Assembly: GCA_016748015.1 (NCBI GenBank)
Contig: JAAOMT010000514.1
Coordinates: 356,924-420,923 of the forward strand
Source of the DNA: Geosiphon pyriformis
Lineage: Eukaryota > Glomeromycota > Glomeromycetes > Archaeosporales > Geosiphonaceae
Length of the DNA: 64,000 bases
Reading direction: 5' to 3'
The position numbers were made by a program, and so were the translations under genes. Of the stretch, positions 2,798 through 47,083 are shown one piece after another. Below the pieces are notes generated by a model. It was not told the DNA's origin, did no database searches, and saw only the letters and a program-made list of their open reading frames with translations. Each line of letters starts with the position of its first letter. Within the stretch, counting starts at the first letter, position 1.

Positions 2798-2889
2798 TAG
2801 CATGGTCCTTGTGCATGGTGCTGGTGTAATAAACCTTTGTATTCACTAAGTGATGAATGCAAATCCTGTCTGATCTATTACAAAGATTG

Positions 2890-4440: not shown

Positions 4441-4450
4441 AAACACAATA

Positions 4451-13963: not shown

Positions 13964-13969
13964 CAAAAA

Positions 13970-22470: not shown

Positions 22471-23422
22471 TGTAACAAGTAATTATTTGGGGTCTCAAAG
22501 CAAATAACAAATCCATAACTTGGTATTTACTAGCTAATTTTGTTGAGTTATATCTAAAGATTTTGGTGTCTAAAGATTTTGGGTTGAGTTTTTTATATAA
22601 TAAACAGAGATTTAAGTTTTTTTTTCTCATAACCTCCCAGAATGTGTTATTTTGTCAAATTTTTTTCTCAATATGGTAACTGGTAATCTGACAAAGATGT
22701 TTTTTTGATAAGCTATCCTTATTTTACATGATTTCTACCCTTGTTCCCTAGGTCTTTTACCAGGCTAACTTTAATGTTAATAATTCAGTGCTTTAATCTT
22801 TAATTAATTAGTAAACAACAATCAAACAAATCAAAGCAATAAAATAAAGAAAATAAAGAGATTAAGCCAAGGCAAGAACAATTAGTATTTCATCAATAAC
22901 CATGATTAAGAACTATTGTTCCAGTGTGATTAAAAATTAGATTTTATTAACATGAAGTGTTGATAAGAAGAAGTTGTGATTAGATCTTTAAACAAACAGT
23001 AATAACATAAATTGGATGATAACAAATGTATTTTTATTTGGTAATTAATAATTTCACTTTTGTTAATAGTAATTATCCTTGAAGTAATTAATGAATAGAT
23101 AGGAATAGAGGTTTTTATTTTTGTAGATGCTTTTCTTGCTTCTAATGCTTCTACTATATATACATAATTCTTTTTACATGAGAAATTTTTTTTTGCTAGA
23201 TTTCCTGTAAAATTTTTGATTTCTTGAAACATTCAAGATTTTCTGAAAAATTCTCAACTTTTCTGAAATATCTTGAATTTTCTGAATAATTCTGAATTTC
23301 CTAAAACATTCAAGATTTTCTGAAAAATTCTTTTTTTTTTTTTTTTATTCTAATTGACTAATTTATAATTATGTGTTTTTTTTTTGATTATGTATTATTT
23401 TTTCTCTTTTTTAAGTGTAACA
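22471..23422 (-). repeat. 3' LTR of gypsy-2 element BD
   Basis: 952 bp, from TGTAACAAGTAATTATTTGGGG to AAGTGTAACA on the + strand, homologous to 41824-42753 and, inverted, to 26467-27287. It contains a run of imperfect AGATTTTCTGAAAAATTC-like repeats (near 23215-23335), echoed in the other gypsy-2 LTRs as CAGGATTCCAGAAATTC-like repeats. Confidence 0.9.
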
Positions 23423-25370
23423 TTATCTTTTCCTTTTAATATTAAGTTCCATCAAAATTTCCTAATATTTCTTTTTGTAATAATTCTATAATTTTCTTTT
23501 TTAAGATTATTTTATCTATTTTTCATGGAGTTCCTCAAACTGGCTGTTGATTATTCTTTCCTATTGATTAATGGATAAGCTACTAATTTTTGGTTATAAT
23601 AGTATCTCTGAATAGTTTTAAAAGATAGTGTATATTTAGTAGATAGTTTTGATGTATATATCCAAATTAGATTTCTTTCTAATAAAGTTTTCTATATCTT
23701 ATATAATCTTTTAATCAAAGACTCTTTTGGTTTGATTCATATACAAATTTTGAATCATTAATTTTTGTCCCAGATGCCAATAGCAATATAAAACTGGAAA
23801 TTGTTCTATCTATTGATTCCAATTTTTTGTTGTCACCTCTTTTGGTTGAACAATAACAGTTGGTTTTTTGAAAGTGCTATTTACTTTCTCAATGATTTTG
23901 TTGATATTATTGTTAATTTCTTTGTGTATTTATTGATATGATGTAGTTTTTTCCTTTTTCTTTTAGTGTTTTTATAGCAGATGGTTTAATGATTGATTAT
24001 TATTTCTATGTTTGTTTGTTGTTAATTTATGATCTGAAATAATTGTTGTGCTAGTTGGTGAATGTGATTTGGAATTTTTATTTTTCTGTTGTTGTTGTTA
24101 CATGCTTTGATTTCTTATATATTGTTTTAATAAATTAGATCAACATGTTTTGTTTCAATATGTATAATTGGTTCCAGATTTCGTGGGATCTTATTTGGTC
24201 TCACTAGTGTTCTTTGTACTTCCAGTTGTGAAATATTATTGGTAAATAATGATGTGTAATAATAAGATTTTAGTCAATTACTATGTGCTGTTTTGGCTAA
24301 GATTTTGTTGTTTCATTTTAGCTTATATGCTCTATTTTCCAAAATTTCTTTAATGTGAAATGGTCCATCTCATTTGGGGTCAAACTTTTTATTCCATTGT
24401 TTTTCTGCTTTGATACAATATAGAAATACTTTGTCTCCAATCTTGAATTCGACTGGTTTATTTGGTAATTGGTTATTATGCCATTCTTTTTGTTTTGCTT
24501 GTAACTTTTGGATGTTATCAACTGCTTTTTGTTATTTGTTTTCTAAAGTTTTTATTAAGTTATACATTCTTCTTAATAATGTTTCTTAGAAATTGTCTTC
24601 TGTTATTAGTTCTGTTGAATATGTATTGACTTCTATTTTAACTAGTAATGTTGGAGTTCTACCATATATTAATTCAAATGGTGTCACTTGTGTGGTATCT
24701 TGCTTTATTGTCTAATAAGCAAATAATACTAATGATATAAATAAATCTCATTTGTTCTGGTTTTCTTGGCTGATTTTAGCAATTGCTTCACACAATGTTC
24801 TGTTGAACTTTTCAACTAAACCATTTGTTTGTAGATAGTATGATGATAATAATGGTTTTTTAATTCCAAATTTTAACTTAATTCTGTTAGTATTCTGTTT
24901 ATAAAGTGAGTTCTTTGATCTGATAACAATTCTTTTAAATATCTATGTTGACAAATTAGATCTTAATAAACAAATTTGGCTATGAATTCTGCATCTGCTC
25001 ATTGAATTGCTTTTACTTCTGGCCATTTTGTGAGATAATCTATGACTATTGCAATATATCTGTTGCTTTTGTTGGTGATTGTTAATGGTTTAACTAAATC
25101 AATTCCAATTCAATTAAATAGTTGTCCTACTTTAATTGGTTTCAATAGTTCACTGGGTTTTGTTCCTCTTCTTCTCTAATAAGCATCACAATTTTGAACA
25201 TATTAGATAATATCTGAATACCATTGATGACCAATAATATTTTTTTCTGGTTCTTTCTATGGTTGCTTCTTTATAAAAATGTCCTGCTATCAGATCTGAA
25301 TACATGCTGTATAGTATTGTTTCTTTTTCTGGTTCTGTGATTACTCTGAATAATTAATTTGAATCCTTTC
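23423..25370 (-). pseudogene. Integrase of gypsy-2 element BD
   Basis: On the minus strand: an HHCC-type zinc region with NCDAY near 25190, GIDLVKPLTIT (first Asp) near 25100, ELLSDQ (second Asp) near 24922 and TNGLVEKFNRTLCEAIA (Glu) near 24812. The spacing is about 35 residues. A C-terminal module with YFYIVSKQKN...FTLKKFWKIEHIS lies at 24318-24521. Many stops are present. The DNA near 23423-23470 matches the region just before the 3' LTR of element C. Confidence 0.82.
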
Positions 25371-26466
25371 TGTTTTTCCAATATAATATATTTTGGTAAA
25401 TAATAAAATATTTTAATTGTTGTTTTATGTTGTTTCATTTCTTTTAAGATAATTTTTCTTTAAACTGCTGGGTATTAATATAGTATGGAGTTGTTAATAT
25501 TTTTGTGTATTCATCTTTTGTTATATTTTTGGGTTGAAATGTTCTCAGATTTGTTTCATTTATAATAGACTGTTGGTATTTTTCTTTTTTTTTTCTTTTT
25601 TATAATGTACATTATAATTAAATAGTGAAAGTTCTATTTTCCATCTTATATAATGATTATTTCAGAATTTTTGTTTCTGAATTGAAATCAATCCTTTGTA
25701 ATTAGTGTACATATCAAACTTTTGATTCAAGTATTTTTTCTATTTAATAATAGCCTAATAAATAGCCAAGTATTCTAATACTGAAGTTCCATAGTTTTTT
25801 TTAGCTAAACTCAAACTTCTGTTGGCTTATACTACTGGGTGTTCTTATCTATTTAGTTTTTTCTAAAATAACATGGCTTTTAATGCTTGGTTTGATGCAT
25901 TTGTGATGATAATAAATGGTTTATTGTGATCTGAATATATTAGAACTGGAACTTGAATAAGTTTTTTTTTTAATGTATCAAATGTTTTTTGTTGTTTTTT
26001 TTTCCATTTGTATTTTATGTTCTTTGCTTGGAGCTGGTGGAGTAATTGGGCCAATTTGGAAAAATTCTGGATAAAATAGTAGTAGTATTCAGCAAATTTT
26101 AAGAATGTTCTTAATTTTGTAAGATTAGTTAGTACTAGAAAGTTTTTAACAATCTCAATTTTGTCTGGATCTGTTTTGATGCCATTTTTGCTTATAACAT
26201 GTCCCAAAAACTTAAGTTTAGTTTTTTCAAAGAAACACTTAGTGGTATTTAACTTTAATCCAATTCTTTTTAGTTTTTCAAACACTTGTTAGAGTTGGTA
26301 TAAATAATTATCAAATATCTTGAAGAACACATTGGTGTTATCTAAGTAAACAACTACTGATTTTCATAATAGTTCTTTATAAACTATTTTTATTAGCCAT
26401 TAAAAAGTAGCTGAAGCATTTATTAAGCCAAAAGACATAACTTTGAATTTGAAATTCTCTTTTTGG
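25371..26466 (-). pseudogene. Reverse transcriptase end and RNase H of gypsy-2 element BD
   Basis: The open part at 25863-26285 reads KLNTTKCFFEKTKLKFLGHVISKNGIKTDPDKI, the connection domain, and the start of RNase H. The catalytic region lies at about 26330-26466. The domain breaks off at 26466 exactly where the 5' LTR of element C begins, and the missing upstream half resumes at 36690. Confidence 0.88.
26463..26466. repeat. Target duplication of element C, left
   Basis: TTGG; the right copy at 36686-36689 is TCAG. Both are single transitions from TCGG, so an original CpG probably decayed differently on each side. The rejoined reading frame (CTTTTACAACC then CAAAAAGAG on the minus strand) matches the uninterrupted copy at 33455. 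Confidence 0.75.
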
Positions 26467-27287
26467 TGTTATTTATAAAAGATAAAAATTATAATAGTAT
26501 ATATTAGCCAATCAGAAGTAAACATAGTAAAATATGAAATTTTAGAATTTCTCTCAAAGAAATTACAAGATTCTCATATGAGGAATCACAGAATTCCAGA
26601 ATTTCAGGATTTTTTTTGAAGAATTGCAAAATTTCAGGAATTCCAAGATTTCTGATAAAAAAAATAAAAGAATTGAAGAATTTCAAATATGTATATATAG
26701 CAGTAGCATTAGAAGCAAAAAAGACAGATATCTCAGTTTAGATTTTATCTAAGCAATATTCTAATTCACAAATATCAATAAATAATTATTTGCTATCTCA
26801 ATCCACTCTTCACTATTAACATGAAGTGTTAATAGCTGCAAATACTTAACCACACTGGAACAATAGCTTTTAATCATGGTTATTAATGAGATACTAATAT
26901 TTATTGCCTTAACTTATTTTTTTTATTTTCTTTTATTTTCTTTTGTTATTTCTTGTTGTTAACTAATTAATAAGGATTAAAAAGCACTGAGTTACAGATT
27001 TTATAAGAACTGATAAAAAACTTGTAAAATAAGGGTAGAGAACTCATAAATTTAAGGATAGCTTACCAGGAGAATTACTGGCCATCACACTGAAAAAGAA
27101 ATTCAATAGAATTGCAATTTTGGGAGGCTATTAAAACAACAATTGAATCTCTGTCTATTATACAAAAAACTCCAACCAAAACCTTTAGATAACCAAAATC
27201 TTCAAATATTAACAACAAGATCAGCCATTAAGCACCAAGTTATGGGTTTGTTATTTGATTTGAGATCTCAAATAATCATCTATAACA
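26467..27287 (+). repeat. 5' LTR of element C
   Basis: 821 bp, TGTTATTTATAAAAG to TCTATAACA, with a TATATATAGCAG box near 26692. It is homologous to 28458-29342 and 35875-36685. Confidence 0.92.
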
Positions 27288-27333
27288 TTTGGTGCTCTCT
27301 GTGAGATATAATTTAACAGAGAACCAGCACCAA
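27288..27333 (+). promoter_or_regulatory. Primer-binding site of gypsy-2 in a stem-loop
   Basis: Just after the LTR comes TTTGGTGCTCTCTGTGAG. TTGGTGCT (27289-27296) and CTCTGT (27297-27302) can pair with AGCACCAA (27326-27333) and ACAGAG (27316-27321), leaving a bulge of AACC. The BD copy keeps the same layout on the minus strand (TTGGTACTTCCTGT...ACAGAGAACTAGCACCAA near 41823). The downstream arm mimics a tRNA 3' end. Confidence 0.6.
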
Positions 27334-27384
27334 TAGCAACTATCTGAAACAGTAGCAGAATCTAAAGAAACAGAGACATTCCAC

Positions 27385-28457
27385 TTGGAATTTGCAAAAT
27401 TTTTATTCCAATATTATTACACCCATCTCGAATTAACAAATAATAGTTGGCCAATAAAATTAGCTTTCAATTGCCATGTTAACAAAAAAATAGTATATCA
27501 TTTGGGAAACCAAAGAAATCCAGAATCTGCTTTTAATAATTTTTTTAATGAACTACTCCAAAGCACCACACTGCCACAGAATTATTTATTTGCACTATTT
27601 ATCATGGAAATAAATAGAAAAATAGAAAAATACACCAAACAAAGATTTCCCATTACTTTTGCCAACAAAAGAAAATTGCAAACACCAGCAGAAATTCCAA
27701 AGCAAATACAATTATCTACTTAGAAAAAACAGAGAGTTGATTTACCTGTTAATCTATCATATCATCATACACCCAGAAATACCATTAATATAACATCAAT
27801 AGATGTGTTAACCACAAATATAATAATACCATTAAACAGAATTCTGTTCCAAAGTAAACAAAAGAAAACAGAGTTATTAGAAACATATAACAATTATTTT
27901 GAGGGATTTAAATTGTGATCCCCAATACTATCAAGAACTTAATCATCATTATCACAACCAGATTTTAGAGCCATTAGTTCTTGAAAAATAACCAATTCCA
28001 AAGAAAAAGAAGATAGCAATCAAAAAATTAATAAGTGAAATCCAATTCTAAAAAACCCAGAAATTTAAATCCTGATTATTTTAACTCAGCAAAATTAGAA
28101 CAATCCAAATACCATTCCTATTGTTGCCCAAAACTTACTTTCAGTAATCATGATTGATCTACTACCAGTTTTACCAATTACCAAACAGTAACAGCAACAG
28201 CCACAACCACCACCCCAACAGTAACTACAATAGCAATCTCAACTCCAACCACAATAACAACTATTATTAGTACTAATGACATATATACCTATTGCCAAAA
28301 TTGAGAAATTTACTGGTAAAAATAATGATATCTAAGTATGACTTAACAACATAGAAAAAGTCATCACAGCCAATGGATGGAATAACAACAGAGCTCTTCA
28401 AGCAATTTCCTATTTTCTCCAAAATACTGCCAATTTATGGTATTAAAGCTTAGCTGC
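27385..28457 (+). pseudogene. gag of element C, first part
   Basis: It is open from about 27385 to 27721 with KRFPITFANKRKLQTPAEIPKQIQ, closely parallel to YLITYANKNKKKLQTPAAILQRIQ of BD at 41384-41761. A Gln-rich, Pro-rich stretch (CAACAGCCACAACCACC) near 28190-28260 and a capsid-like part ending in LQNTANLWY follow before the solo LTR at 28458 cuts it. I recognise no named domain in the N-terminal 110 residues, but it is conserved between the two copies. Confidence 0.75.
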
Positions 28458-29342
28458 TGTTACTTATAGAATATAGAAATTATATTAGCATATAAATTAG
28501 CCAATCAGAAGTAGATATAGTAAATGTGGAATTCCAGGATTCTTTTCAGAGAAATTGCAGGATTCCAGAAATTTCAGAATTCTCATACAAGGAATCACAA
28601 GATTTCAGAATTCCAAGATTCTTCTTAAAAGAATTGTAGGATTCCAGAAATTCCAGAATTTCTGGCTAGAAAATTGAAGAATTCAAGGAATCTTATACAA
28701 TGAAATTTATGTATATATAGCAGTAGTATTAGAAGCTAGAAAATAAGTCAATTAGACTTTTAGACTTCTAAAGTCAGTAAGACTCTCAGAGTCAATTAGA
28801 TTTGCAAGTCATAATTATTAAATACCCTTCCTTCAAAAGATAGTATACTATAACTTGAAGTGAAATTGCTTCCATATTAATAAAATTATCTATTATTCTT
28901 AAATCCATGTTATTATCCACTACTTAATCTGCTGGCACAATAGCTCTTAATTATGGCTATTAACAAAACACTTATTTATTTTTTTATTTTTTTTATTTTT
29001 TTATTTTCTTTTATTTTCTTTATTTTTTTTTATTTTTTTTTGTTGTTTACTAATTGAAATTAAGGATTAAGTACTGAGTTATTGATGTCAAAGATAGCCT
29101 GGTAAAAGACCCCAAAGGAAGGGTATAAAGTTTGATAATTTAAGGATAGCTTACCAGAAGAGCATTTCTGCCAAATTACCAGCCACTATGCTAAGAAAGA
29201 AATTTGATGGAATTGTGATTTCGAAAAGCTATTAAAACATTATTGAATCTCTGTTCATTATACAAAGAACTCAACCAAAATCTTCAGATACAAACAATCT
29301 TCAGAAATCACCCAACAAACCATTTAAAAATTACCTGTAATA
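28458..29342 (+). repeat. Solo gypsy-2 LTR inside gag of element C
   Basis: 885 bp, TGTTACTTATAG to CTGTAATA, flanked by CTGC (28454-28457) and CTAT (29343-29346), which differ by two transitions. The gag frame continues on the far side (YFSNNNSINCLTNTFTTIKQ), matching uninterrupted gag of BD (YFNDYNSINYLTTNFTTIKQ). Confidence 0.88.
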
Positions 29343-30300
29343 CTATCAGACCACAAACTTTCTAAGAATTCAAACTTGAATTCTTGAGATATTTTAGTAA
29401 CAATAATAGCATTAATTGCTTGACAAATACTTTTACCACTATTAAGCAAGGAGAAAGTAAAGTAGTCATTACCTACCTAGGATGTTTTTACAGGAATCTG
29501 CACCAAATTTAAGCTATTGACACTAACTATTTTACAATGACTTAGATTTTGAATCAGTTTATTTATAGACTATACAATAGTATTCTCCAATATGTATATC
29601 CATTACATCCAATCAACCTTCAAGCTACAATCATCCACACCAGAGACTTTGAATCAGCTGAACTAGAAGCCAATCATGCACAAACTGTAAATTTAGTAAT
29701 AAACAGATTATTTTACTTGGATTCCAAATTAAAACAGTTCAGTAATTTGATCAATTAGAAATTAGAAAGATACTTAGTTAACAACAATCAGGCAATTTAT
29801 TAATCTCCACAATAATGCAATAATTAGGGAAATTTAAATTGTTCCCAAAATCAATTATGTCTATCATCATCAAGCAATCAACAATGACAACAGGAAATGC
29901 ATATTTGCCACTATTGCAGTAAACAAAAACATTTGAGAATTAACTGCTGACTAAGAATAGACAACCAATGATCAGAAAATTAGTATCAAAACTCCAATTG
30001 CAAATTTCAAACCTTGAACTACACCAACAATCTATTAACCAAACAATATTAATATTAGTCTCATTACTCTTAAATAATACAGCCAATATATCAAACACCA
30101 ATTTATCAACTGGCAACACCCATAATTTATTAACCACTGCAGCCACAAGTAATTTATTAGACATCTATAATTTCAATACTATTACCAAATACAGCTCAGA
30201 TAACATTAGAAAATTTCAGATTAAGAGTCACCCAAAACTGAAGATCAGTAATGGTTGTCCACAAACCAATTCTCAATTTCTCAAATCAGTCATCAAAATC
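29343..30300 (+). pseudogene. gag of element C, second part with CCHC knuckle
   Basis: The capsid end (FYRNLHQI, then LNQFIYRLYNSILQYVYPLHP) and FESAELEANHAQTVNLVI match BD around 40300-40640. CHYCSKQKHLRINC near 29900-29941 is a CX2CX4HX4C knuckle; BD has CHYCGKQGHLQI near 40086-40126 with its last Cys lost. A Thr/Asn-rich spacer to the protease follows. Confidence 0.8.
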
Positions 30301-30499
30301 ATGCCAGTGAAGTTCAAAAACCAGATACACTCAAAACCCAAATTTTCAACACTATTTAAGTCTCTTGGTTACCCCAGAAGACACCATATCTAACAACTTG
30401 GAAGCCAACCAAAAGCCACTTACCAGTAATATATTTCCAGCAATTATTACTGAAGACAAATTACTTGCAGCCATTTTTCTATTTGAACTCAAGGAATTA

Positions 30500-30890
30500 A
30501 CAACACTTCTTTTTAGCAGAGCCACTCTCAACACCAAACCTATTACTGTAATATACACTAATGCCAAAGTTGATGGTCAGTCTATTAAACTAATCCTTAA
30601 TAGCAAATCAGCAGACAGCATTATTACATGACAATTCATGGACAAATTAAGTCACTAAGTTAATTGCACTCTCAGCACCAGAATCATTACAGCTGATAGA
30701 GCAACCAAAACTTCTATAGGTGAAATTGACAACTTTCTATTTGAAGTCAACAGCATTATTATTTTCATCAAAGTCTTAGTAATAGAAGCCACTCAATACC
30801 AAGCACTTATTGGCAATGACTGGTTGTCTAAAACCAATACAGTGCTTGATTGGACTATACAAGAGCTCCAACTCAGTCAGAACGGATAAC
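30500..30890 (+). pseudogene. Aspartic protease of element C
   Basis: SIKLILNSKSADSIIT near 30580-30628 aligns with PIKLILDSSLANSIIT of BD and with the usual ILDSGSxxSII. The catalytic Asp is Asn here. IGNDWLSKTNTVLDW near 30812-30856 is the usual end of gypsy proteases. A TGA follows SIIT. Confidence 0.82.
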
Positions 30891-31276
30891 ACACATGTGT
30901 ACCAACCATATGTGGTCACTTCAAGACTATTTACATTCCAGCACTACTAATTAAGCTTGAAAAAGAAAAAAAATCTATCTGAAAAGCCTACCAAGTCTCA
31001 TAAGCCAACAACAAGCACAATGAACTACTGCTTATACTTTTATGGGACAAAAAAGGAAAGGAAAAGCAAAAAGAAAAACTTACCTAGAATAATAATCAAA
31101 TATTGTAAACTAATAACAATCAGAATGAGCTGACACTAATTTGGAAGTAAGAAGAAACTGAAAAAGAGAAAAAAAAAGAAAAAGAAGAAAAGCCAGCACT
31201 TGCAACCACTACAACTTATACATCATACATCTATACTTTACCACAATCATCTAATTATTGCCAATTGAAACTGATG

Positions 31277-31830
31277 TGCATCAATTATGGCAAAAAATTG
31301 TTATTAATAGGCACATGCTGTGATGATAATAAAGAATACCCAATAACAACAAAATTTTATTGCTAACCATGTGTCTTAAAGTGTTTTGGATGACTTAAAC
31401 AACAAGAAAAATAGAATAATAAATCATGTCTTACATGTAGAAAAACTCTATTATATGAAAAAATGTGGAATAACATTCTAGAGCAAAGAGGAATGTACAA
31501 TAAATTATGCTAATACATGATCCTAATAAGTAACTGGATAAGAAAAAAGACACCAATAGAAGCAGTATGGAGAAGAGCAGTAAGATGTTTGGACAGATAT
31601 CCACATAACAATAACAAAATATGGTGCATAACACTTGTCAAAATCAAAGAAATGTTATCAGAAAAAATAAAAATGTTTAAAAACAACTCACCAGAACTCA
31701 TAAAACTTAATTGGAGCCCAAATTCAGATATTATCTTAGACTCTATGGACCCAGAACAATTTTACAAACACTATCAAGAATTAGCACTCACTAAAGAAGA
31801 GCAAGAACAATGTTTAGAACAGTTAAACAC
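31277..31830 (+). pseudogene. Cys-rich domain and linker of gypsy-2 (element C copy)
   Basis: CINYGKKLLLIGTCC at 31277 is followed by KFYC-stop-PCVLKCFG and KSCLTCRKTLLYEKMWNNI. BD reads CVNCGKKLSTMGTYCG and KFYCCPYVFEHF at the same place, so the ancestral pattern is CX2CGKKL, GTXC, FYCXPC, CLXC, compatible with a treble-clef or RING-like zinc fold. An open stretch at 31517-31834 continues with VWRRAVRCLDRYPHNNNKIW and a Gln/Glu-rich helix. I know no gypsy domain with this signature at this position, and its role is unknown. Confidence 0.65.
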
Positions 31831-31849
31831 CTGATTATATAATTACTGT

Positions 31850-32100
31850 TTGATTCTATATAACTTTCAATATTGTAATAAGTGTGACTTCATCTATAAT
31901 CCACTACTACAAATAATTTACATGATTCCAGAGGAAGATGAACCAATTAGCAGCTGTGAAGTGAAATCAAAATTACAGTTCAATTCCAATTCAAACTCTG
32001 ACAATGATGACAACAAAAACAATAGTTCCAGCTCTATTCAAAATGACAATAAAGATAATAACAATTTGAACTCCAATTCAAACCCAAAACAATATATCAT
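31850..32100 (+). pseudogene. Asn/Ser/Asp-rich linker before dUTPase (element C)
   Basis: Low-complexity NSNSNSDNDDNKNNSSSS followed by IQNDNKDNNNLNSNSN, matched by a very similar stretch in BD (38075-38190). It probably acts as a flexible linker between the Cys-rich domain and the dUTPase. Confidence 0.7.
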
Positions 32101-32109
32101 ACTTTTTAA

Positions 32110-32650
32110 CCTCACTAAAGAGCAGAAACTTAAATGATTCAGTAATAATAATAAAGATATTATACCAAAATGCACACATAATACTAATACAGAATTTGAT
32201 TTAAGATATCCAAGAAAAGATGTTATCAAATTAGAACCCCATTTACACACCTGTATTAATCTTAAAGTAGCACTGGAAATCCTAGCAACAACAATAATTC
32301 AACTAGCATTTAAGAGTAGCTTAGCAAAAAAAAGAATTAATATTAGAGGAGGAATAATTGACACAGGTTATGTAGGAAATATTATTACAATGCTATAAAA
32401 TAACTTAGAAAAAGCCTATATTATAGAGCCAAATAAAAAGATAGCACAGACAATATTTCTGCTTCTGATTAAAATAGCTCAATTAGTATCAGTAAAAAAC
32501 AGAAAAAAATTAGAGATAACAGCAAGAGGAATTAGTGGATTCAGATCCACAGAAAAAATAGATGTACCAGTAAATATGGCTAAGAAAGAGATTGTTGACA
32601 AGAAAAAAATTATCTCCACTCATCAATCAATTTTTATTCTGCCATATAAC
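32110..32650 (+). pseudogene. dUTPase domain in gypsy-2 pol (element C copy)
   Basis: The frame reads in order: EFDLRY (motif 1 position, near 32190); LEPHLHTCINLKVAL, the beta-strand section; KSSLAKKRINI (motif 2, PRSGLA-like, near 32310); GGIIDTGYVGN (motif 3, with the Asp and the uracil-stacking Tyr, near 32349); NKKIAQTIF (motif 4, RIAQ-like, near 32437); and ARGISGFRSTEK (motif 5, RGxxGFGSTG-like, near 32523). Order, spacing and about 130-residue length fit homotrimeric dUTPases, which convert dUTP to dUMP and keep uracil out of DNA. One TAA near 32396 and the Arg/Lys substitutions in motifs 2 and 5 show decay. The BD copy has the same domain. It sits between protease and reverse transcriptase, so it would be packaged in the particle. 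Confidence 0.82.
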
Positions 32651-33180
32651 TAATACATATTAACCATAAAAAGGAAAATAAAGGATCAAGCTTAAATTTT
32701 TGAAGTGGAAACTACCATTTGTAAATCAGAAAAAATTGGACTTACTAATCTTTACATACCAGCCAAAAGCCCAAAACATATTAAAATTTCCATCTACAAC
32801 ACAACAGAAAATGTCATTAAAATACTAAAAGAAACCACCATCAGATATTTAAGCATTAAAGTTGAAGAACAACTACCAAACCCCATTCTAGACTTTCTAC
32901 AACTGTGTAGATATGTGAATATCATATCACAAACAATATATGGACAAAAAGAATGTTATCTGCTCTAACCAAAACAATTGAAACAGATAAACTTAGGAAA
33001 TTTAGACTTACTACAATATATACAACTTAAAATATTACTTAACAATTTTAATAACATCTTTGCCAGTGAAAACAAATTTGGCAGAACTGACATAATCCAA
33101 CATCAAATTAAGACTGAAGATATAATGCCAATTAAACAAAAAGCATACCAAGTACCATCAGTAAGCCATGAAATTATCTG
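32650..33180 (+). pseudogene. Linker between dUTPase and reverse transcriptase (element C)
   Basis: Open parts at 32705-32968 and 32978-33181 carry CKSEKIGLTNLYIPAKSPKH, YNTTENVIKILKETTIRYLS and LQLCRYVN, then NNFNNIFASENKFGRTDIIQHQI, which leads into reverse transcriptase. BD has a parallel 145-residue frame at 37169-37606. The first part looks like a beta-rich repeat of the protease/dUTPase type, but I do not assign it. Confidence 0.7.
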
Positions 33181-34008
33181 ACAAGAGATTAATCGGATGT
33201 TAGACAATGGGTTAATTCAACTATTAATGAGTCCATAGTCATTATCAGTGGTACTAATTCATAAGAAAAATGGAAAAATCCACTTTTGTGTAGATTACCA
33301 AAAACTTAATAGAGTAACCAAAAGAGATAGCTACCCAACTCCAAAGATCTAAAAACTTTTTGATGCATTTGAAGAAAAGAAATGGTTCTCAACTTTAGAC
33401 TTGGATAGTGGTTACTGGCAAGTAGTTATAAAACCAGAAGATAAGGAGAAAACAGCTTTTACAACCCAAAAAAAAAATTTGAAATTTGAAATAATGCTAT
33501 TTGGCTTAATGAATATACCAGCCATATTTCAATGGTTTATAGAAATTGTCTATATTAGACTATTATGGAAATCAGTAGTTGTTTACTTTGATAACACCAA
33601 TGTGTTTTCCAAGACATTTGATGATTATTTACACCATCTTCAACAAGTATTTAAAAGACTAAGAAGAGCCAATTTAAAGTTAAATACCACTAAATGCTTC
33701 TTTGGCAAAACAGAATTAAAATTCTTGGGACATGTTGTAAGCAAAAACAGAATCAAGATGAATTCAGACAAAATTGAGATAGTTAAAAACTTTTTAGTAC
33801 CCATCAACTTGACTGAACTACAAGCATTTTTAGGATTTATAAATTACTATCATTACTTCATCAAAGACTTTTCTAAACTGGCTCAGTTATTACACCAGTT
33901 CTAAATAAAAAACACCAAATATAAATGGATGGAAACCCAGCAAGAAGCTTTTAATATATTAAGAAAAAAACTTATTTAAGCTTCAATATTAATTTATTCA
34001 GATTATAG
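33181..34008 (+). pseudogene. Reverse transcriptase of element C
   Basis: FCVDYQKLNRVTKRDSYPTPKI, STLDLDSGYWQV, MLFGLMNIPAIFQ, and YFDN at the catalytic position (YLDD expected; the second Asp is Asn) are followed by KLNTTKCFFGKTELKFLGHV and FLGFINYYHYFIKDFSKL. Stops replace Gln or Trp codons. The domain is dead because of the Asp-to-Asn change. The frame runs into the solo LTR at 34009 and resumes exactly at 34727 (YSDYS then KPFIITIDVLG). Confidence 0.9.
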
Positions 34009-34722
34009 TGTTACGGGTTGGAGTAACAAGCTAACGAATAGCAAGGGAGAACAGTATTGTATGGTGATAGAAATAAACAAAGAAGGAATTACAATAAGGG
34101 AGCGAATTGAATAAGTAGGAATTCAATGTGCATGATCAGTCTCATAAAAATCACAGTCGCTAATCTTTTCTTAAATCTGAAGGTAGAGGAATAGTTTGTG
34201 ATTGTCAACAAGATAACACTACTGCTATTATTCTATGCCTCAACTCGGCGATTCTTAGAATCAATAACAGGTATCATTGTACTTTTCAATCGTTTCTTTA
34301 TTCAATGAATTACAAGAGCAAGCCAATTGCTTCTCAGGCTAATTCTAACAAATACAAATCAAGAAGGGGAAAAGATAAGGTATGTGAATGCCAACAAGTA
34401 GATACTTGAAGGTAAGGAAAGGGGAATAAGCGATTATGAGAGGAAGTAATTAATATTCTTTATTTCGTTACTTTGATTATGTCTTTCTACAGCTAAGAGA
34501 ATCATTGCTTATATAGCTATCTAAAGTGGTCAATGACCAGGTCAATGATCAGGTCAATGATCAGGTCATTGATCAGGTCAATAATTAGGTCAATAATCAG
34601 GTCAATGATCAGGTCAATGGTCAGGTCAATGATCACTATCTAAAAATAGGGTGGCTAATTATATGACATCAGTGGCTAATACATGTGATAATTAATAAAA
34701 ACTATGTGTTTTAACCGTAACA
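34009..34722 (-). repeat. Solo gypsy-1 LTR inserted in element C
   Basis: 714 bp on the minus strand, TGTTACGGGTTGG to AACCGTAACA, with ATAG on both sides (34005-34008, 34723-34726). The host reading frame rejoins perfectly after removal. It retains many CpG sites (for example ACTCGGCGATTC near 34236) that are TpG or CpA in every other gypsy-1 LTR here, so it looks like the youngest insertion in the stack. Confidence 0.95.
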
Positions 34723-34726
34723 ATAG

Positions 34727-35110
34727 CAAGCCATTTATAATTACAATTGATGTATTGGGTTAAGCATTAAAAGCTGTACTATCTCAGAAAAAACCAGATA
34801 GAAGAGAACACTTAGTAGCATATGCTAATTACAGCTTAAGTCTAGCTGAAAAGAACTATAGAACTCCAACACTAGAATACTTAACAATCTATTGAGTAGT
34901 CATAAAATAGAAAAAATACTTAAGCCATAAATTCAACATATATATTGACCATAAAGGATTGACTTCAATCCAAAAACAAAAATTTGGAGATGATTGCTAT
35001 GCTAAATGAAAAATATAACTTTCACTATTTAATTATATAGTACATTACAAAAAGAGAAAAGAAAACAGAAATGCTAATAGTTTGTTACAGATAAGACAAA
35101 TTTAAGAACA
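34727..35110 (+). pseudogene. RNase H of element C
   Basis: KPFIITIDVLG (Asp), AEKNYRTPTLEYLTI (Glu) and IYIDHKGLTSIQKQKFG (Asp) are the three conserved acidic blocks of gypsy RNase H, followed by NYIVHYKKRKENRNANSL. Several Trp codons have become stops. Confidence 0.85.
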
Positions 35111-35874
35111 TTCCAATCCAAAAATATAACAAAAAATAAATACACAAAAATATTAACAACTCTAACACTATATTAATACCTAGTAGTTCAAGAAAAAATT
35201 ATCTTCAAAGAAACAAAACAATATAAAACAACAATTTAAACATTTTATCACTCACCAAAATATATTATATCAGAAAAACAAAAAGGATCCAGATCAATCA
35301 TTCAGAGTAATCACAGAAGCAAAAAAAAGAACAATACTATTTAATATATATTCAAATCTAATGGCAGGATATTTTTATAAAGAAGCAATCATGAAAAGAA
35401 CCAGAAAAAGATACTATTGACCATCTATATATCCAGACATTATTCAATATATTCAAAATTGTGATGCTTGTCAGAGAAGAAGAGAAACAAAATCCAGTAA
35501 GCCACTAAGACCAATCAAAGTAGGACAATTATTTGATCACATTGGAATTGACTTAATCAGACTATTAATAATAACCAGCAGAGAAAACAGATATATTGCA
35601 GTAGTCATGGATTATCTTACTAAATGGCCAGAAGCAAGAGTCATCTATCAATTATATGCTGGATTTTAAGACTAACCAGAAATACTACTTAACATAGTAA
35701 TAAACACAGTTACTATGAATTAAATAGGTAAAATAACCAATGCCCAATTTAAAGAATTACAGACCAAAATAACACAAATAATTCTTGGAAAAAAAGTCCA
35801 AAAAATGATCAAAAAAGAAGAATTAAGAGAGTTTAGGGATCTTGATGGAGCTCAATATTAAAAAAAGTGAATAA
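35111..35874 (+). pseudogene. Truncated integrase of element C
   Basis: The zinc region (MAGYFYKEA...NCDACQRRR) and the first catalytic motif (GIDLIRLL, then MDYLTKWPEARV) are present to about 35660. The second Asp and the Glu motif seen in BD are missing. A short C-terminal piece leads to the 3' LTR. An internal deletion is the simplest explanation. Confidence 0.8.
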
Positions 35875-36685
35875 TATTACTTATAGAAGATAAGAATCAT
35901 AATAGTATATATTAGCCAATTAAAAGTAGACATAGTAAAATATGAAATTTCAGAATTTCTCTCAGAGGAATTACAAGATTCCAGAAATTACAGAATTCTT
36001 ATACAAAGAATTACAGGATTCCAGAAATTCCCGAATTCTTGATGGGAGGAATAGAAAAATTGAGGAATCTCAAATATGTATATATAGCAGTAGCATTAAA
36101 AACAGAAAAGACAGATCTCTCAGTTTAGATTTTATCTAAGCAACATTCTAATTCACAAATATCAATAAATAATTATTTGTTATCTCAATCTACTCTCTAC
36201 TATCAACACTTTATATTGATAACTGTAAATACTTAACCATATTGGAATAATAGTTCTTGATTATACTTATTGACAGAATACTAACATTTATTGTTTTGGC
36301 TTATTTTTTTTGTTTTTTTTTTATTTTATTTTATTTTATTTTGTTATTTCTTGTTGTTGACTAATTGATAAGGATTAAAAAGTGCTGAGTTATAGATGTC
36401 ATAGGGACTGGTAAAAGACCTGTAAAATAAGGATAGAAAATTCATAGATTTAAGAATAGCTTACCAAGCAAATTACCAGCCATCATGCTGAGAAAAAAAT
36501 TTGATGGAATTACGATTCTGGGAGGCTACTAAAACAACAATTGAATCTTTGTCTATTATACAAAGAACTTCAACCAAAACTTTCAGATAACCAAAATCTT
36601 CAAATATTAACAATGAAATCAGCCATTAAGCATCAAGTTATGAGTTTGTTATTTAATTTAAGACTCCAAATAATCACTTATAACA
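35875..36685 (+). repeat. 3' LTR of element C
   Basis: 811 bp, from TATTACTTATAG (TG changed to TA) to CTTATAACA, followed by TCAG, the decayed target duplication. Confidence 0.9.
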
Positions 36686-37168
36686 TCAGGTTGTAAAAGC
36701 TGTCTTCTTATTATCTTTTGGCTTCATGGCTACTTGCCAGTAACCACTATCTAAGTCCAAAGTTGAGAACCATTTTTTTTCTCCAAATACATTAAAAAGT
36801 TTTTGGATCTTTAGAGTTGGGTAGCTATCTTTTTTTGTTATTCCATTAAGTTTTTGGTAATCTACACAAAATCAAATTTTTTCATTCTTTTTCTGAATCA
36901 ATACAACTTGTAAAGACCATAAACTCATTGATGGTTGAATTAATTTGTTGTTTAACATCTGGTTAATTTCTTGTTGTATGATTTCATGACTTGCTGATGG
37001 TACTCAATATGCTTGTTGTTTAATTGGCATTGCATCTCCTGTTTTGATTTGGTGTTAAATGATGTCAGTTTTTCCAAATTCATTTTCACTGGCAAAAATA
37101 TTGTTGAAATTATTGAGTAACAATTTAAGTTGTATCTTTTGTAATAGATCTAAGTTTCTTAAATTCAT
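36686..37168 (-). pseudogene. Reverse transcriptase start of gypsy-2 element BD
   Basis: The minus strand reads NGLIQPS-like, FCVDYQKLNGITKKDSYPTLKI and STLDLDSGYWQVAMKPKD, and ends at AFTT at the junction with element C. It is the upstream half of the domain that continues at 26466. Confidence 0.88.
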
Positions 37169-37575
37169 TTATTCCAATTGTTCTGGTTGAAGCAAATAAT
37201 ATTCTTTTTTTCTATATATTGTTTGTAATATGATGTCCACATATCTACATAGTTGTAGAAAATTTGGAATGTTGTTTGGTGGTTGATTTTTAACCTTGGT
37301 GCTTAAGTATCCAATAATAGTTTCTTTTGTTATTTTAATAGAATTTCCAGTTGTGTTGTAGATGAAAACTTTGATGTAGTTGTTGTTCTTGGCTGGTATA
37401 TAAAGATTGGTAAGCCCAATTTTTCTTGATTCACAAATGGTTGGTTCCACTTCAAAAATCTGTGTCTGGTTCTTCACTTTTCTTTCTAATACTAATATAT
37501 ACCAGTCATATGATGAAATGAAAATTGATTGATAGATGAAGATAATTTCTTCCTTGTCAATAACTTCTTTTTTTG
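37169..37575 (-). pseudogene. Linker between dUTPase and reverse transcriptase (BD)
   Basis: Part of a 145-residue open frame (37169-37606) with CESRKIGLTNLYIPAKNNNY, YNTTGNSIKITKETIIGYLS and LQLCRYVDIILQTIY, closely matching element C at 32700-32968. Its conservation in two copies suggests real function in the ancestor. Confidence 0.72.
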
Positions 37576-38010
37576 TCATATTGACTGATATATCTATTCT
37601 ACTCATAAATTCGAATTCACTTATTCCTCTAGCTGTTATTCTTAATTTTTTTTTATTTCTTATTGAAACTAACTAAGTTATTTTAACCAAAAACAGGAAT
37701 ATTATTTACTATTTTTTTATTTGACTCTATAATATAGGCTTTTTCTGAATCATTTTGTAGTATTGCAATGATATTTTTTACATATTCTGCATCAATTATT
37801 CCTTTTCTTATATTGATCTCTTTTTTTGCTAAATTACTCCTAAATGTAAATTGAACCATTATTGTTGCTGGAATTTTCAGTGCTACTTTTAGATTAATAC
37901 AGATGTGTAAATGTGAATTTAATTTGATGACATTCTTTTCAGAATATCTCAAATTAAACTCTATATCAGTATTATGTACATGCTCTAACATGATACTTTT
38001 ATTATTATTG
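37576..38010 (-). pseudogene. dUTPase domain in gypsy-2 pol (BD copy)
   Basis: Most lies in the open frame 37683-38231. IEFNLRY (motif 1 position), HLHICINLKVALKIPAT, FRSNLAKKEINI (motif 2 with the Arg-Ser kept), KGIIDAEYVKN (motif 3, Asp and Tyr kept) and ESNKKIVNN (motif 4, decayed) are followed after a stop by ARGISEFEFMSRIDISVNM (motif 5) near 37575-37632. It agrees with the element C copy at the same place relative to protease and reverse transcriptase, which rules out a chance similarity in one copy. The two copies have lost different residues. Confidence 0.8.
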
Positions 38011-38240: not shown

Positions 38241-38599
38241 TAGATTGTAAATGAGATCACACTTATTACAATATTAGAAGTCATAAAAAATTAAGCAGTG
38301 TTGACAAAGTCAAGTATTTAACTGTTCTAAATACTACTCTTGTTTTTTTCAAGTGGGTGCTAGGTTCTGGTAATGTTTATGAAATTGTTCTGAATTATTT
38401 TCAACATCATTAAAAACATCAAAAGTAAGAATATATTTGGATTTGGAAAAAGAAAGTAGATTGTTTTTAATTTCCAGTAGTTTGCTGGATGAAATACTTT
38501 TAACTTTGGCATTTACTATTCTTCAGATCTTGTGCTCATTGTGTAAATAACTTTTTAAACATCTGAGTGCTTGTTTCTAGGCATCATTAATTGAGGTTT

Positions 38600-38890
38600 C
38601 TTTTTTCACTTAGTTGTTTATAAGAATTGTGTATTAACACATTTCATTGCATGTTTTTCCTTGTCCAGGAATGTTATTCCACATTTCTTTGTCTAGTAGA
38701 GTGGTTTTACATGCAAAACAAGGTTTGTTGTTTTATTTTCCTTGTCTTTTTGGTCATCTAAAGTGTTCAAAAACATATGGGCAGCAATAAAACTTTATTG
38801 CAGTTGGCTATTCTTCATTATTGCCACAGTATGTGCCCATTGTGGACAATTTCTTGCCACAATTAACACATATTAGCTTGAATTAACAAT
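38600..38890 (-). pseudogene. Cys-rich domain of gypsy-2 (BD copy)
   Basis: The minus strand reads CVNCGKKLSTMGTYCGNNEE near 38822-38872, then KFYCCPYVFEHF and, further on, a second Cys cluster near 38700. It is the counterpart of 31277-31480 in element C and preserves the first CX2C pair that element C has lost. Confidence 0.65.
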
Positions 38891-39099
38891 AATTTGTTTA
38901 ATGGGTGATGGTGTGTAATATATAAGTAGAGGTAGTAGTTGGTGTTGATTTTTTCTCTCTTTTCTTTCTTTTTCTTTTTTTCTTCCAAGTTAAAATTGGT
39001 GATAACTTATTGTAGTTTTCTTTGGCCCATAAGACTTAAAATGCTTTTCAAGTAGTTTTTTTTTTTTTTTTTCTAACTTAATTAATAGTTGTTTGTTAA

Positions 39100-39660
39100 T
39101 GGTGGTCTTAAAATGATCACAAATGGTTGGTATTTGGGTATTTTGGCCATTTTGGCTCAGTTGTAATCCCTAAGTGTTCCAATATAATACTGTATTGGTT
39201 TTGAACAACCAGTTATTACCAATGAGAGCTTGGTACTAAGTGGCTTTTATCACAAGAACTTTGATAGGTATAGTAAGACTATTGACTTTAAAAGAAAAGT
39301 CATTTATTTTGCCAATAAGAGTTTTTGTGGCTCCATTAGTAGTAATGATTCAGGCACTGGCAGTACAATCAACTCAACAACCTAATTGGTCTATAAGTTG
39401 TCATGTAATAATGCTATTTGCTAAACTGCTATCAAGAATTAGTTTGATAGGATGGCTGTCAATTTTGACATCCATATATATTGCTGTAATAAGCTTTGTA
39501 TTCAAAGTAACTTCACTAAATAATGATATAATGATCAATTCTTCTATTTTAAAGAAAAAAATTGCTGCAAAAAATTTGTTTTTAGTGACAGTTGCTGGTA
39601 GAATATTGTTGGTAAGTGGTTGCTATTAATTGGATTCTGAGTTGTTGGTTTGGATGTCTT
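39100..39660 (-). pseudogene. Aspartic protease of gypsy-2 element BD
   Basis: The minus strand reads PIKLILDSSLANSIIT near 39403-39450, the DSG-type active site with Gly changed to Ser, and ALIGNNWLFKTNTVLYWNT near 39180-39240, the normal end of the domain. The long plus-strand frame across 39240-39629 is its antisense shadow. Confidence 0.8.
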
Positions 39661-39829
39661 CTGGAGTAACCAAAAGACTTAAGTTCTGAAAATTTGGGTT
39701 CTAAATATACTCAGTTCCCAAATTTCATAAATGTGATTCTAATGTTTGGTTAAAAGAGCTGAGAATTGGTTGATGTATAACCATTACCAATCTTCAGTTT
39801 TGTTAAGTGGTTCTTGGCCTTTGATTTCT

Positions 39830-41761
39830 AGATGACATTTGAGTTGGAATTTGTAGCAGAGTTTGGATTTGTTGGAATTAATATATTATTTGCAGCTGCA
39901 GTTAATAAATAACTAGTGCTGGAATTTGATAAATTGGAAATTGATAAGTTGGCTGTTGTGTTATTTGTATATAGTAGAGTGAATAATAATCTTAATTTAG
40001 ATACTGGTTCAGAGCTTAAAACCAGCAATCAGAGTTTTAATATTGATTTTCTGATTGTTAGTTATTTAAGCATATATAATATTTGATTTGTAAGTGGCCT
40101 TGTTTACCACAATAGTGGCAGCTATATGTTTTCATTTGCTATTGTTAATTGAGTATTAATAATGAATCTAATGAATTTCAGATCTAATTTGAGTGTCTCT
40201 AACTATTACAATGTTGTGACAGTTGATAGATTGCATAATTGTTGTTAGCTAAGTATTCCTTAATTTTCTGATTAATTAACTCACTGAATTGTTTTAGCTT
40301 AGAGTTTAATTCAGATGGTTCATTTATTATTAGGTTTATGGCTTGGATGTAGTTGGCTTCTAATTCAGCTAATTCTAAATCTTGGTTAATAGCATTCTAA
40401 AATATAGCTAGACATAATGAATATACATGTTGTAATAAGCTGCTGCATAGCCCATGAATGAACTGATTCAAAACCTAAAGTTTAGTAAAATAGTTTGTGT
40501 TAATGGCCTGAATTTGATGTAGATTTCTGTAAAAGCATCTCAAGTAAGTAATGACAGCTTCAGTGTCTCTCTGTTTGATAGTAGTGAAATTGGTTGTTAA
40601 GTAATTAATGCTGTTATAATCATTAAAATATTACAGAAATGCAACTTTAAACATGTTGAAATCTTGTAGTTTGTTTACAAGATTTTAGTACCAGGAATCA
40701 GTAATGTCCTGTAAAAAGTATGAGATAGCTTGTATTGCTTTGGTGTTATTCCAGTTGTTGGTGGTTATTGCTTTGGCTATATTATTGAGCTAAACTTGGA
40801 CATTATCTTTCTTGTCAGTGAATTTTTTTAACTTAGCAATTGGTACATATGTTATTAGTGCAATTAATAGTTGTTATTGGGGTTGCTGTTAAAGTAGTTA
40901 TTGTTGTTGTGACAGCTGTTATTGTGATAGTACAGCAACTGGTAATAGATTTATCATGATTTTTAAAGATAAGTTTTGCTAATTAATAATATTAAGGTTT
41001 GGATCATTTTGATTTTGCTAAGTTTGATTAATCAGGGTTTCAATTTTTGGATTTTCTAAGATCAGATTTTGGTAGTTAAATTCTTAATTTTCATCTTTCT
41101 TTTTTTCTGATTCAGTTACTTTCCAAGAACTTATGGTTCTGAAATTTGGTGAAGATAGCAGTAATTGAAATCCTAATGATGTTGATAATCACGATTTAAA
41201 TTCTTCAAAATAATCACCATAGATTTCTAATAACTTTGCTTTCTTTTGTTTACTTTGAAATAGAAGTTAGACTAATAATGTTTTTATATTTGATGTAAAT
41301 GTGTCTGCTAATGAAATATTGATGGTGCTTTTGGATGTGTAGTGATATGATAAGTTAGTTAGTGACTCTATTCTTGTTTTCTTTCAAATGGGTGGTTGTA
41401 TTCTCTGAAGTATTGCTGCTGGTGTTTGTAGTTTTTTTTTGTTTTTGTTTGCATAAGTGATTAGATATTTTTGTTGCATGTAATTTTTAATTTCTTTGTT
41501 AATCTTAGTGATAATTGATGCAAAATTATAATTTACTGGTAGGCTGGTGTTTTGAATTAATTTGTTATAAAAATTTTTTCTTGCTAATTTGGTATCTACT
41601 GGTGCTTTTAGAAAATAAAAAATTCTCTTATTGATGTAAAAGTTAAAGACTAATTCTGCTGATAGATGATTGCTGGTTAATCTCAAGTTTTGACAGTAAT
41701 GTTGGAATAAGGATTTAGCAAATCCTAAATGGTTTGTTCCTATTCTTTTTGATTTTGCCAC
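39830..41761 (-). pseudogene. gag of gypsy-2 element BD
   Basis: It starts as an open frame at 41761 (GTNHLGFAKSLFQHYCQNL) shared with element C. A Gln/Pro-rich stretch near 40860-40930, a capsid-like part (QAISYFLQDITDSWY; FYRNLHQIQAI; AELEANYIQAINLIINE) and a knuckle CHYCGKQGHLQI near 40086-40126 follow. Stops are frequent. It would form the particle and bind element RNA. Confidence 0.78.
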
Positions 41762-41823: not shown

Positions 41824-42753
41824 TGTTACAAGTAATTATTTAGGGTTTTAAAGCAAATAACAAACTCATAACTTGATACTCACTAGCTAATTCTGTTGAA
41901 TTATATTTGAAAGTTTTGATGTTTAAAGGTTTTGGATTGAGTTCTTTGTATAATAGACAAAGATTCAAGTTTTTTTTTCTTGTAGCTTCTCAGAATATGT
42001 TATTCCATTAAATTTTTTTCTCAGTATGGTGACCAGTAATTTGGCAGAAATACTCTTCTGATAAGCTATCCTTATTTTACATGATTTCTATCCTTGTTTT
42101 CTGGGTTTTTTACTAGGCTAATCTTGATGTTGATAATTCTGTGTTTTAATCCTTAATCAATTAGTAAACAACAATTAAACAAACCAAAGCAATAAAATAA
42201 AGAAAATAAAGAGATTAAGCCAAGGTAAGAATAATTAGTATTTTGTTAATAGTTATGATTAAGAGCTATTGTTTCAGTATAGTTAAAGATTGGGTTTTAT
42301 CAACATGAAATGTTAATAAAAAAGAGTTGTGATTAGATCTTCAAACAAACAGTAATAATATAGATTAGATGATAACAAGTGTATTTTTATTTAGTAATTA
42401 ATGATTTCATTTCTGTTGATAGTAATTATTCTTAAAATGATTAATAAATAGATAAAAATGAAGATTTTTATTCTTAAATAGATGCTTTTTTTGCTTTTAA
42501 TACTCCTACTATATATATAATTCTCTTTACATAAAAAATTCTTTTTCTTTGCTAGATTTTTTGTAAAATCTTTAAAAATTCTCAATTTTTCTGAAATATC
42601 TTGGATTTCTTGAATAATTTAGATTTTTTGAAACATCCAGAATTTTTTAAAAAATCCTTTTTTCTCTTTTTTTATTCTAATTGGCTAATTTATAATTATG
42701 TGTTTTTCTTTTTTTCAATTATGTATCATTTTTTCTCTTTTCTAAGTATAACA
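41824..42753 (-). repeat. 5' LTR of gypsy-2 element BD
   Basis: 930 bp, TGTTACAAGTAATTATTTAGGG to CTAAGTATAACA on the + strand, paired with 22471-23422. The primer-binding core lies immediately inside at about 41805-41823 (TTTGGTACTTCCTGTGAGAT on the minus strand). Confidence 0.92.

Positions 42754-47008: not shown

Positions 47009-47083
<75 letters not shown>

Follow-up and report, generated by a model that had tools for sequence, protein, structure and literature searches.

Two nested elements in one Geosiphon contig

We describe here a 64,000-nucleotide stretch of the Geosiphon pyriformis genome (contig JAAOMT010000514.1, positions 356,924 to 420,923 of the forward strand, hereafter the window), in which an old Ty3/gypsy long terminal repeat (LTR) retrotransposon carries a trimeric-type dUTPase domain between protease (PR) and reverse transcriptase (RT). 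A preliminary description of this DNA had read five trimeric-dUTPase motifs at 32110-32650 and placed them in pol between PR and RT; all five are there in the stated order (EFDLRY, KSSLAKK, GGIIDTGYVGN, KKIAQTIF and ARGISGFRST), and the placement is borne out by profile and tblastn matches. The hidden Markov model search that it proposed for both copies also returned the family. With the interrupting stop codon read as X, PF00692 matches the read-through frame over positions 6-128 of its 129 (47.4 bits, E 2e-12); the E-values for the open pieces taken singly are 1.4e-4 and 0.046. A profile of the element's own family sets the domain limits at 32144-32566. Since the frame is stopped both just upstream of the domain (32135-32137) and inside it (32396-32398), no whole enzyme is expected from this copy. 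The second copy, which had been reported on the minus strand at 37576-38010 with different losses, is real: a frame change splits it and its motif 5 is decayed, PF00692 matches at E 1.5e-4 and the own-family profile at 5e-42 over 37647-38009. Decayed letters occur in motifs 1, 2 and 5 of the window copies, and the Asp and Tyr of motif 3 are retained in both. Judged by its motifs in order and this conserved pair, the domain belongs to the trimeric dUTPase family PF00692, and the Geosiphon domain is also predicted to take the beta-rich dUTPase fold.

The two copies lie in related elements, a plus-strand element (about 26467-36685) being nested within a minus-strand one (22471-42753). From the succession of LTRs, gag, PR, RT, RNase H and integrase, both are Ty3/gypsy LTR retrotransposons. 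Their parts are listed below, where P0001 is a predicted protein of the same genome and iE an independent E-value.

Inner element
26467..27287, +, 5' LTR (TG...CA), aligning with the 3' LTR at 82% identity (835 columns), limits by eye
starts 27290, +, primer-binding-site-like TGGTGCTCTCTG, adjoining the 5' LTR, read by eye
27385..29959, +, gag-like region, interrupted (tblastn, P0001 residues 20-173, 308-363 and 366-566)
30335..31045, +, protease region (tblastn, P0001 residues 644-890, 43% identity)
31247..31888, +, decayed Cys-rich module, after PR and before dUTPase (module profile, iE 9e-37)
32144..32575, +, dUTPase domain with all five motifs and an internal stop codon (PF00692 read-through and family profile)
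32588..32956, +, post-dUTPase domain (family profile, iE 2.6e-46)
33023..34012, +, RT and start of RNase H (domain and homology matches)
34719..35084, +, rest of RNase H, downstream of an insert that is probably a solo LTR
35421..35669, +, integrase fragment, part of the H2C2 zinc domain (PF17921, E 3e-4; its 21.3 bits fall short of the family cut-off, 25.5)
35875..36685, +, 3' LTR (LTR pair alignment, limits by eye)

Outer element
41824..42753, -, 5' LTR, 81.7% identical to 22471-23422
39107..40840, -, gag-PR region (tblastn, P0001 residues 308-848)
38253..38897, -, Cys-rich module (iE 8.6e-39)
37589..38009, -, dUTPase domain, frame-split, motif 5 decayed (PF00692 and family profile)
37202..37567, -, post-dUTPase domain (iE 1.3e-42)
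36689..37075, -, first part of RT, resuming at 26465-25728 past the inner element
24550..26465, -, rest of RT/RNase H and integrase (homology matches)
22471..23422, -, 3' LTR, pairing with 41824-42753

The LTR identities of 82% (inner) and 81.7% (outer) indicate that both elements are old. Two further probable insertions were seen in the inner element. An insert of about 0.7 kb at 34009-34720, bounded by TG...CA (TGTTACGGG...CCGTAACA) and possibly accompanied by a 4-bp duplication, splits its RNase H region and is probably a solo LTR of another family; pieces resembling the element's own LTR (76-82%) at 28460-29303, between two gag parts, probably stem from the solo LTR of a related element. 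No chromodomain was found in eight broken-frame open reading frames downstream of RT from other copies, two of which gave a weak SH3_Tf2-1 match. Elsewhere on the plus strand of the window we observed an RVT_1 match in a 528-residue frame at 13955-15541, which has no other Pfam match and is possibly a non-LTR element, a piece of a pantoate-beta-alanine ligase at 46643-47158, and an RRM protein at 51151-52083 (+) in a GC-richer, CpG-rich part.

Pol order, copy number and selection in the dUTPase family

Less decayed copies, which the preliminary description had suggested looking for, are present in the same genome, where many dUTPase matches sit in long open frames. The open 1433-residue frame of P0001 shows Pfam matches to a gag capsid, an aspartic protease (727-816) and a dUTPase (1169-1298, E 7.8e-22), with RT and RNase H encoded in the next frame; in P0003, partly masked, dUTPase, RT and RNase H share one frame, and integrase parts lie downstream of RT in other Geosiphon copies. 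A Cys-rich module with six invariant Cys (alignment of 11 rows) and a domain of about 120 residues that separates dUTPase from RT (alignment of 9 rows, hereafter the post-dUTPase domain) are found in both window copies and in P0010, an ENA protein with 41% identity to P0001 across 89% of the queried region. From these alignments and matches, the pol order of the Geosiphon lineage is PR, Cys-rich module, dUTPase, post-dUTPase domain, RT, RNase H and integrase. In the 124.7-Mb assembly (the genome is reported as 129 Mb with 64% repeats; PMC9453076), all 150 scored places match the dUTPase family at E<=1.8e-19, which excludes a chance match; as 150 of 3181 candidate places were scored, this copy number is a lower bound. 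Searching proteins with a single dUTPase domain gave 176 proteins among 199 candidates, and the 120 matches listed are all from Geosiphon. Among other fungi, an enrichment of PF00692 has been noted in Entomophthora (PMC10515909).

Retention of the motifs was counted in 183 rows, namely 45 DNA copies including both window copies and 138 predicted-protein rows (P0010 and Geosiphon); these cannot be treated as independent, since the same locus may contribute both a protein and a DNA row, and one exact duplicate and the rows below 90 bits had been dropped. Motif 3 keeps its Asp in 152/182 rows and its Tyr in all 182, motif 2 its Ser in 150/182, motif 4 its Gln in 149/153 and motif 5 its Phe in 124/124. 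The usual losses are of the type that C-to-T change would yield, namely Asp to Asn, Gly to Glu, Arg or Lys, and Ser to Leu or Phe.

Selection was examined in the 44 DNA copies that hold no masked letters, which form subfamilies of 23 and 16 copies with five fitting neither. In the 16-copy subfamily, variants other than C-to-T that occur in at least three copies comprise 4 nonsynonymous and 33 synonymous changes, with 6 further sites unassigned; under neutrality the nonsynonymous fraction would be 0.59 or 0.84 (p 9e-8 and 1e-7). Variants of C-to-T type from these copies, which act as an internal control for the choice of copies by best dUTPase score, are consistent with neutrality. Our reading of these variants is that purifying selection acted on the protein while the family spread, and that neutral decay followed copy by copy. 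Several points weigh against a dUTPase maintained for its activity. The signal stems from one subfamily: in the 23 copies of the L001 type, no variant other than C-to-T is common to at least three copies (3 synonymous and 3 nonsynonymous are found in one or two), and the shared C-to-T variants number 30 nonsynonymous to 24 synonymous (p 0.009), a deficit of nonsynonymous variants that is gone once CpG context is modelled. Choosing copies by score and dropping low-scoring motif rows both favour intact domains, and both window copies are themselves broken.

It could also be that the domain was retained for a non-catalytic reason, such as Gag-Pol folding, a trimer scaffold or signalling. Such roles of dUTPases have been described (PMC4531489), and the motif-less post-dUTPase domain is likewise constrained, with 12 nonsynonymous to 27 synonymous changes in a 15-copy L004-type set. 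We regard this as improbable, since the residues named above in motifs 3 (Tyr), 4 and 5 are near-invariant, and 28 of the 30 losses of the motif 3 Asp are changes to Asn, of the type that C-to-T decay produces.

Origin of the dUTPase and of the domain that follows it

As known cases the preliminary description had named retroviral dUTPases; missing there were the fungal elements of this type, which have been published since 2008 (PMC2864245). They include PosPlaTy3-5 of Postia placenta, elements of Phanerochaete chrysosporium and Tmt1 of Tuber, and PosPlaTy3-5 shares with Geosiphon a dUTPase between PR and RT (PMC2864245). These elements, compared here by description, differ in their basidiomycete or ascomycete hosts, and the descriptions excerpted from the same source make no mention of a post-dUTPase domain or Cys module (PMC2864245). 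Outside fungi, the LTR retrotransposons Juno, Vesta and TelKA of bdelloid rotifers hold a dUTPase in the same place (PMC5408684); Juno resembles the Geosiphon elements in an extra zinc knuckle upstream of RT, but there the knuckle follows the dUTPase (PMC5408684), whereas the Geosiphon Cys-rich module, of some 200-250 residues, precedes it. Planarian giant gypsy elements likewise have a dUTPase-like domain between PR and RT and differ in their size and in carrying other host-like domains (PMC6431247). Thus dUTPase in fungal gypsy elements, also in the PR-RT slot, and the rotifer and planarian cases are already known. At the level of titles and abstracts, a scope that leaves aside the Geosiphon genome paper (Curr Biol 2021), we found no description of Geosiphon elements or of a tandem dUTPase in a retrotransposon.

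Other positions also occur among ENA polyproteins. P0171 and P0173 are of Ty1/copia type with a dUTPase after a retroviral SH3-like domain (between it and RVT_2 in P0171), so that, on these domain matches, capture occurred in copia elements too. P0167-P0169 are Ty3/gypsy polyproteins in which the dUTPase lies towards the C-terminus, downstream of integrase in P0167 and P0168. This resembles the position reported for PosPlaTy3-4 (PMC2864245). P0172, by our scan, and P0174, by precomputed domains, have the order PR, dUTPase, RT; together with P0175 they fall on another dUTPase and RT branch than the Geosiphon elements, and the gap between dUTPase and RT is about 130 residues in P0172 as against about 235 in P0010. 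In the pol of feline immunodeficiency virus and equine infectious anaemia virus, the dUTPase sits between RNase H and integrase; the position in these non-primate lentiviruses thus differs, and the two lentivirus-type rows used here fall outside the Geosiphon dUTPase clade.

The tree that the preliminary description had called for was built from 28 dUTPase rows with retroviral, yeast, human and gypsy enzymes, the host dUTPase of Geosiphon not being among them. A single clade (100/99) unites the rows from Geosiphon and the window with P0010. Outside it lie the group labelled cellular (yeast, human and 3c2t, the last probably from a chlorella virus, as the title of the near-identical entry 3c3i suggests) and the rows from lentiviruses, Ty1/copia, gypsy elements with a C-terminal dUTPase and the other PR-dUTPase-RT gypsy elements. 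Constraining Geosiphon to join the other PR-dUTPase-RT gypsy rows (p 0.23) or the two lentivirus-type rows (p 0.40) is tolerated, and joining it with the yeast/human/3c2t group is nearly rejected (p 0.059). As a side observation, C262:402626-402751 gave the best match to a piece of the yeast dUTPase (52% identity, 39.1 bits), above 149 other scored places, and is a candidate exon of the host's own dUTPase.

In the RT tree, the Geosiphon dUTPase elements group with the dUTPase-less window elements A and C (96/94), the other PR-dUTPase-RT elements lying outside, and a single clade of all PR-dUTPase-RT elements is rejected (approximately unbiased test, p 0.021). In A and C, PR to RT spans only about 0.6-0.7 kb, and no significant match to the dUTPase, Cys module or post-dUTPase domain was found in them. 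Dwelling on the window, its dUTPase-less Ty3/gypsy elements at 2123-5185 (+) and 61581-63770 (+) have RT 74% identical and a small Cys-rich stretch (C..C / C..C) in the short PR-RT spacer. The separate acquisition proposed in the preliminary description is thus favoured by the phylogenies, with the distinct dUTPase clade and the rejected RT clade on its side; the dUTPase tree still tolerates ties to lentiviral and gypsy enzymes, and later loss is possible. Under such a loss, the dUTPase would be ancestral in this part of the Ty3/gypsy tree and missing secondarily from the dUTPase-less Geosiphon elements, as the identical PR-RT slot and the tolerated dUTPase grouping (p 0.23) would allow. We consider this unlikely, given the RT result (p 0.021), the RT ancestry shared with A and C, and the finding that P0172 and P0174 give no significant match to the Cys module or the post-dUTPase domain.

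As for the post-dUTPase domain, we lean slightly towards a second dUTPase fold that has no motifs, on the basis of profile and model comparisons. An alignment of 28 such domains (linkers) scores 26.4 against 28 dUTPases and 27.5 against the 13 from outside Geosiphon; none of 100 column-shuffled linker alignments reaches either value (highest 18.3), reversed linkers score 12.5 and 9.8, five random halves of the linkers 26.6-29.4, and six control domains of the same pol 9.7-13.6. Against a five-row set of yeast, human, 3c2t and two copia dUTPases the score is 32.0 (probability 62%). In an AlphaFold model (mean predicted local distance difference test, pLDDT, 59.3), the strands of the second half come in the same order as those of the first, and 3 of 2000 shuffles are as good. 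Foldseek places two-domain Epstein-Barr virus dUTPases at ranks 1-5 (223-240 columns, E 2e-9 to 4e-8), above single-domain dUTPases, and herpesvirus dUTPases lead among viral models too.

Against a second fold stands above all the comparison with the Geosiphon-only dUTPase alignment, which scores 16.3 and is reached by 3 of 100 shuffles, because a copy of the neighbour should match the neighbour best. A 9-row comparison gives a probability of 2.4%, and the shallow lentivirus-plus-gypsy (5 rows, 10.9) and C-terminal gypsy (3 rows, 13.7) sets give no match. Seven linkers searched with E up to 10 show no PF00692 match, the sole match being to a tRNA synthetase (E 0.11, below cut-off). The two-domain model is of low confidence (mean pLDDT 59), the Foldseek template-modelling score is about 0.3, the VIA rows of Foldseek barely span the post-dUTPase half, and other proteins also give long alignments. 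With these points in hand, the domain has somewhat under an even chance of being an unrelated beta-rich spacer, whose likeness to dUTPase would be convergence of a short strand-loop-strand pattern; such a spacer is not what the broad-set scores with their shuffles and controls, the 32.0 score, the repeated strand order and the top five PDB matches would suggest.

More tentatively, the whole may be a tandem dUTPase, in which a catalytic domain and a motif-less second fold under selection, acting as a structural or regulatory partner, would stand between PR and RT together with the Cys-rich module. Such a tandem would resemble the monomeric two-domain herpesvirus dUTPase (Epstein-Barr virus, 2bsy), the best Foldseek match, in having two dUTPase-fold domains per chain. 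Herpesvirus enzymes have their motifs arranged differently from trimeric ones (PMC4531489). We rejected the label herpesvirus-type dUTPase, since the Geosiphon protein has all five motifs in the usual order in domain 1 and none recognisable by eye in domain 2. Alignments of about 285-292 columns to the two-domain model were also obtained for the BFVD models Q9WMY7 and A2T3A0, which are annotated as dUTP diphosphatase and come from Dioscorea bacilliform virus, a plant pararetrovirus.

Decay after insertion and the proposed role

A repeat pair flanks a dUTPase at 15 of 20 ten-kb loci, at LTR-like offsets of 8.0-9.0 kb in 11 of them. Across 5827 aligned positions the pairs show 178 differences, of which 171 are transitions; as the LTRs of an element are identical at insertion, the differences arose after integration. 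CpG is changed at 33 of 99 sites, as against 5-8.5% of cytosines followed by A, C or T. A T in front of the cytosine also increases the rate (13% against 6-9% in the LTR pairs; 14% in the L004 type). In the L001 type, C>T or G>A accounts for 121 of the 127 sites with two states, and both strands are affected in each of the 39 copies counted. The observed/expected CpG ratio reaches 0.72 in the gene-like part at 50-54 kb of the window; the retrieved 10-kb loci stand at 0.50 and the elements of the window at 0.02-0.08. This pattern fits decay of methylated CpG, and CG methylation of transposons has been reported in Rhizophagus (PMC8647823), a source in whose excerpt repeat-induced point mutation (RIP) is said not to be detected in Gigaspora margarita.

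The substrate of dUTPase is free dUTP, so the enzyme cannot prevent later CpG decay. The suggestion in the preliminary description that it may counter uracil from cytosine deamination in element DNA is therefore not supported, the decay being CpG-weighted and post-integration. A RIP- or deaminase-type attack against which the dUTPase evolved would produce the excess of transitions in the LTR pairs and the L001 type, and the effect of a preceding T outside CpG; it is very improbable all the same, as CpG is by far the most changed context with no preference for CpA, both strands are hit in every copy counted, and the CpG depletion and Rhizophagus methylation fit methyl-CpG decay.

The best explanation, to which we give a probability of roughly 0.7, is a particle-borne dUTPase that protects retrotransposon cDNA from uracil, the window holding two old nested copies of such an element. 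By analogy with retroviral dUTPases, the domain would be cut from, or remain tethered in, Gag-Pol and form a trimer in the particle, where hydrolysis of dUTP beside the RT would leave little uracil in the cDNA; this cDNA would then escape uracil-excision damage before integration. The setting may be low host dUTPase together with low dTTP in some nuclei or stages of the coenocytic fungus. The retroviral dUTPases studied are trimers that keep dUTP low, and loss of their activity has been linked to more mutations, chiefly G to A, in non-dividing cells (PMC4531489). The data back directly the domain identity and order, the predicted fold, the high copy number, selection in one subfamily while it amplified, the lack of a significant trace in two other gypsy elements of the window and the C-to-T decay after insertion; catalysis, trimer, particle localisation and the low-dTTP setting are inferred. 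The post-dUTPase domain may serve as a fold partner, a spacer or a binding surface.

Retroelements have captured dUTPases on repeated occasions, and the Geosiphon genome holds well over a hundred dUTPase copies beside related dUTPase-less elements. Because copies with and without dUTPase occur together, the benefit of a dUTPase to a retrotransposon is testable by comparison. The case also separates what a dUTPase could prevent, the use of dUTP in cDNA synthesis, from what it could not, the later CpG decay. If the post-dUTPase domain is a dead dUTPase fold, the elements would hold a tandem dUTPase with lost catalysis inside a pol polyprotein, and, if that tandem reading is true, a retroelement parallel to the two-domain herpesvirus dUTPases would exist in early-branching, mycorrhiza-related fungi.
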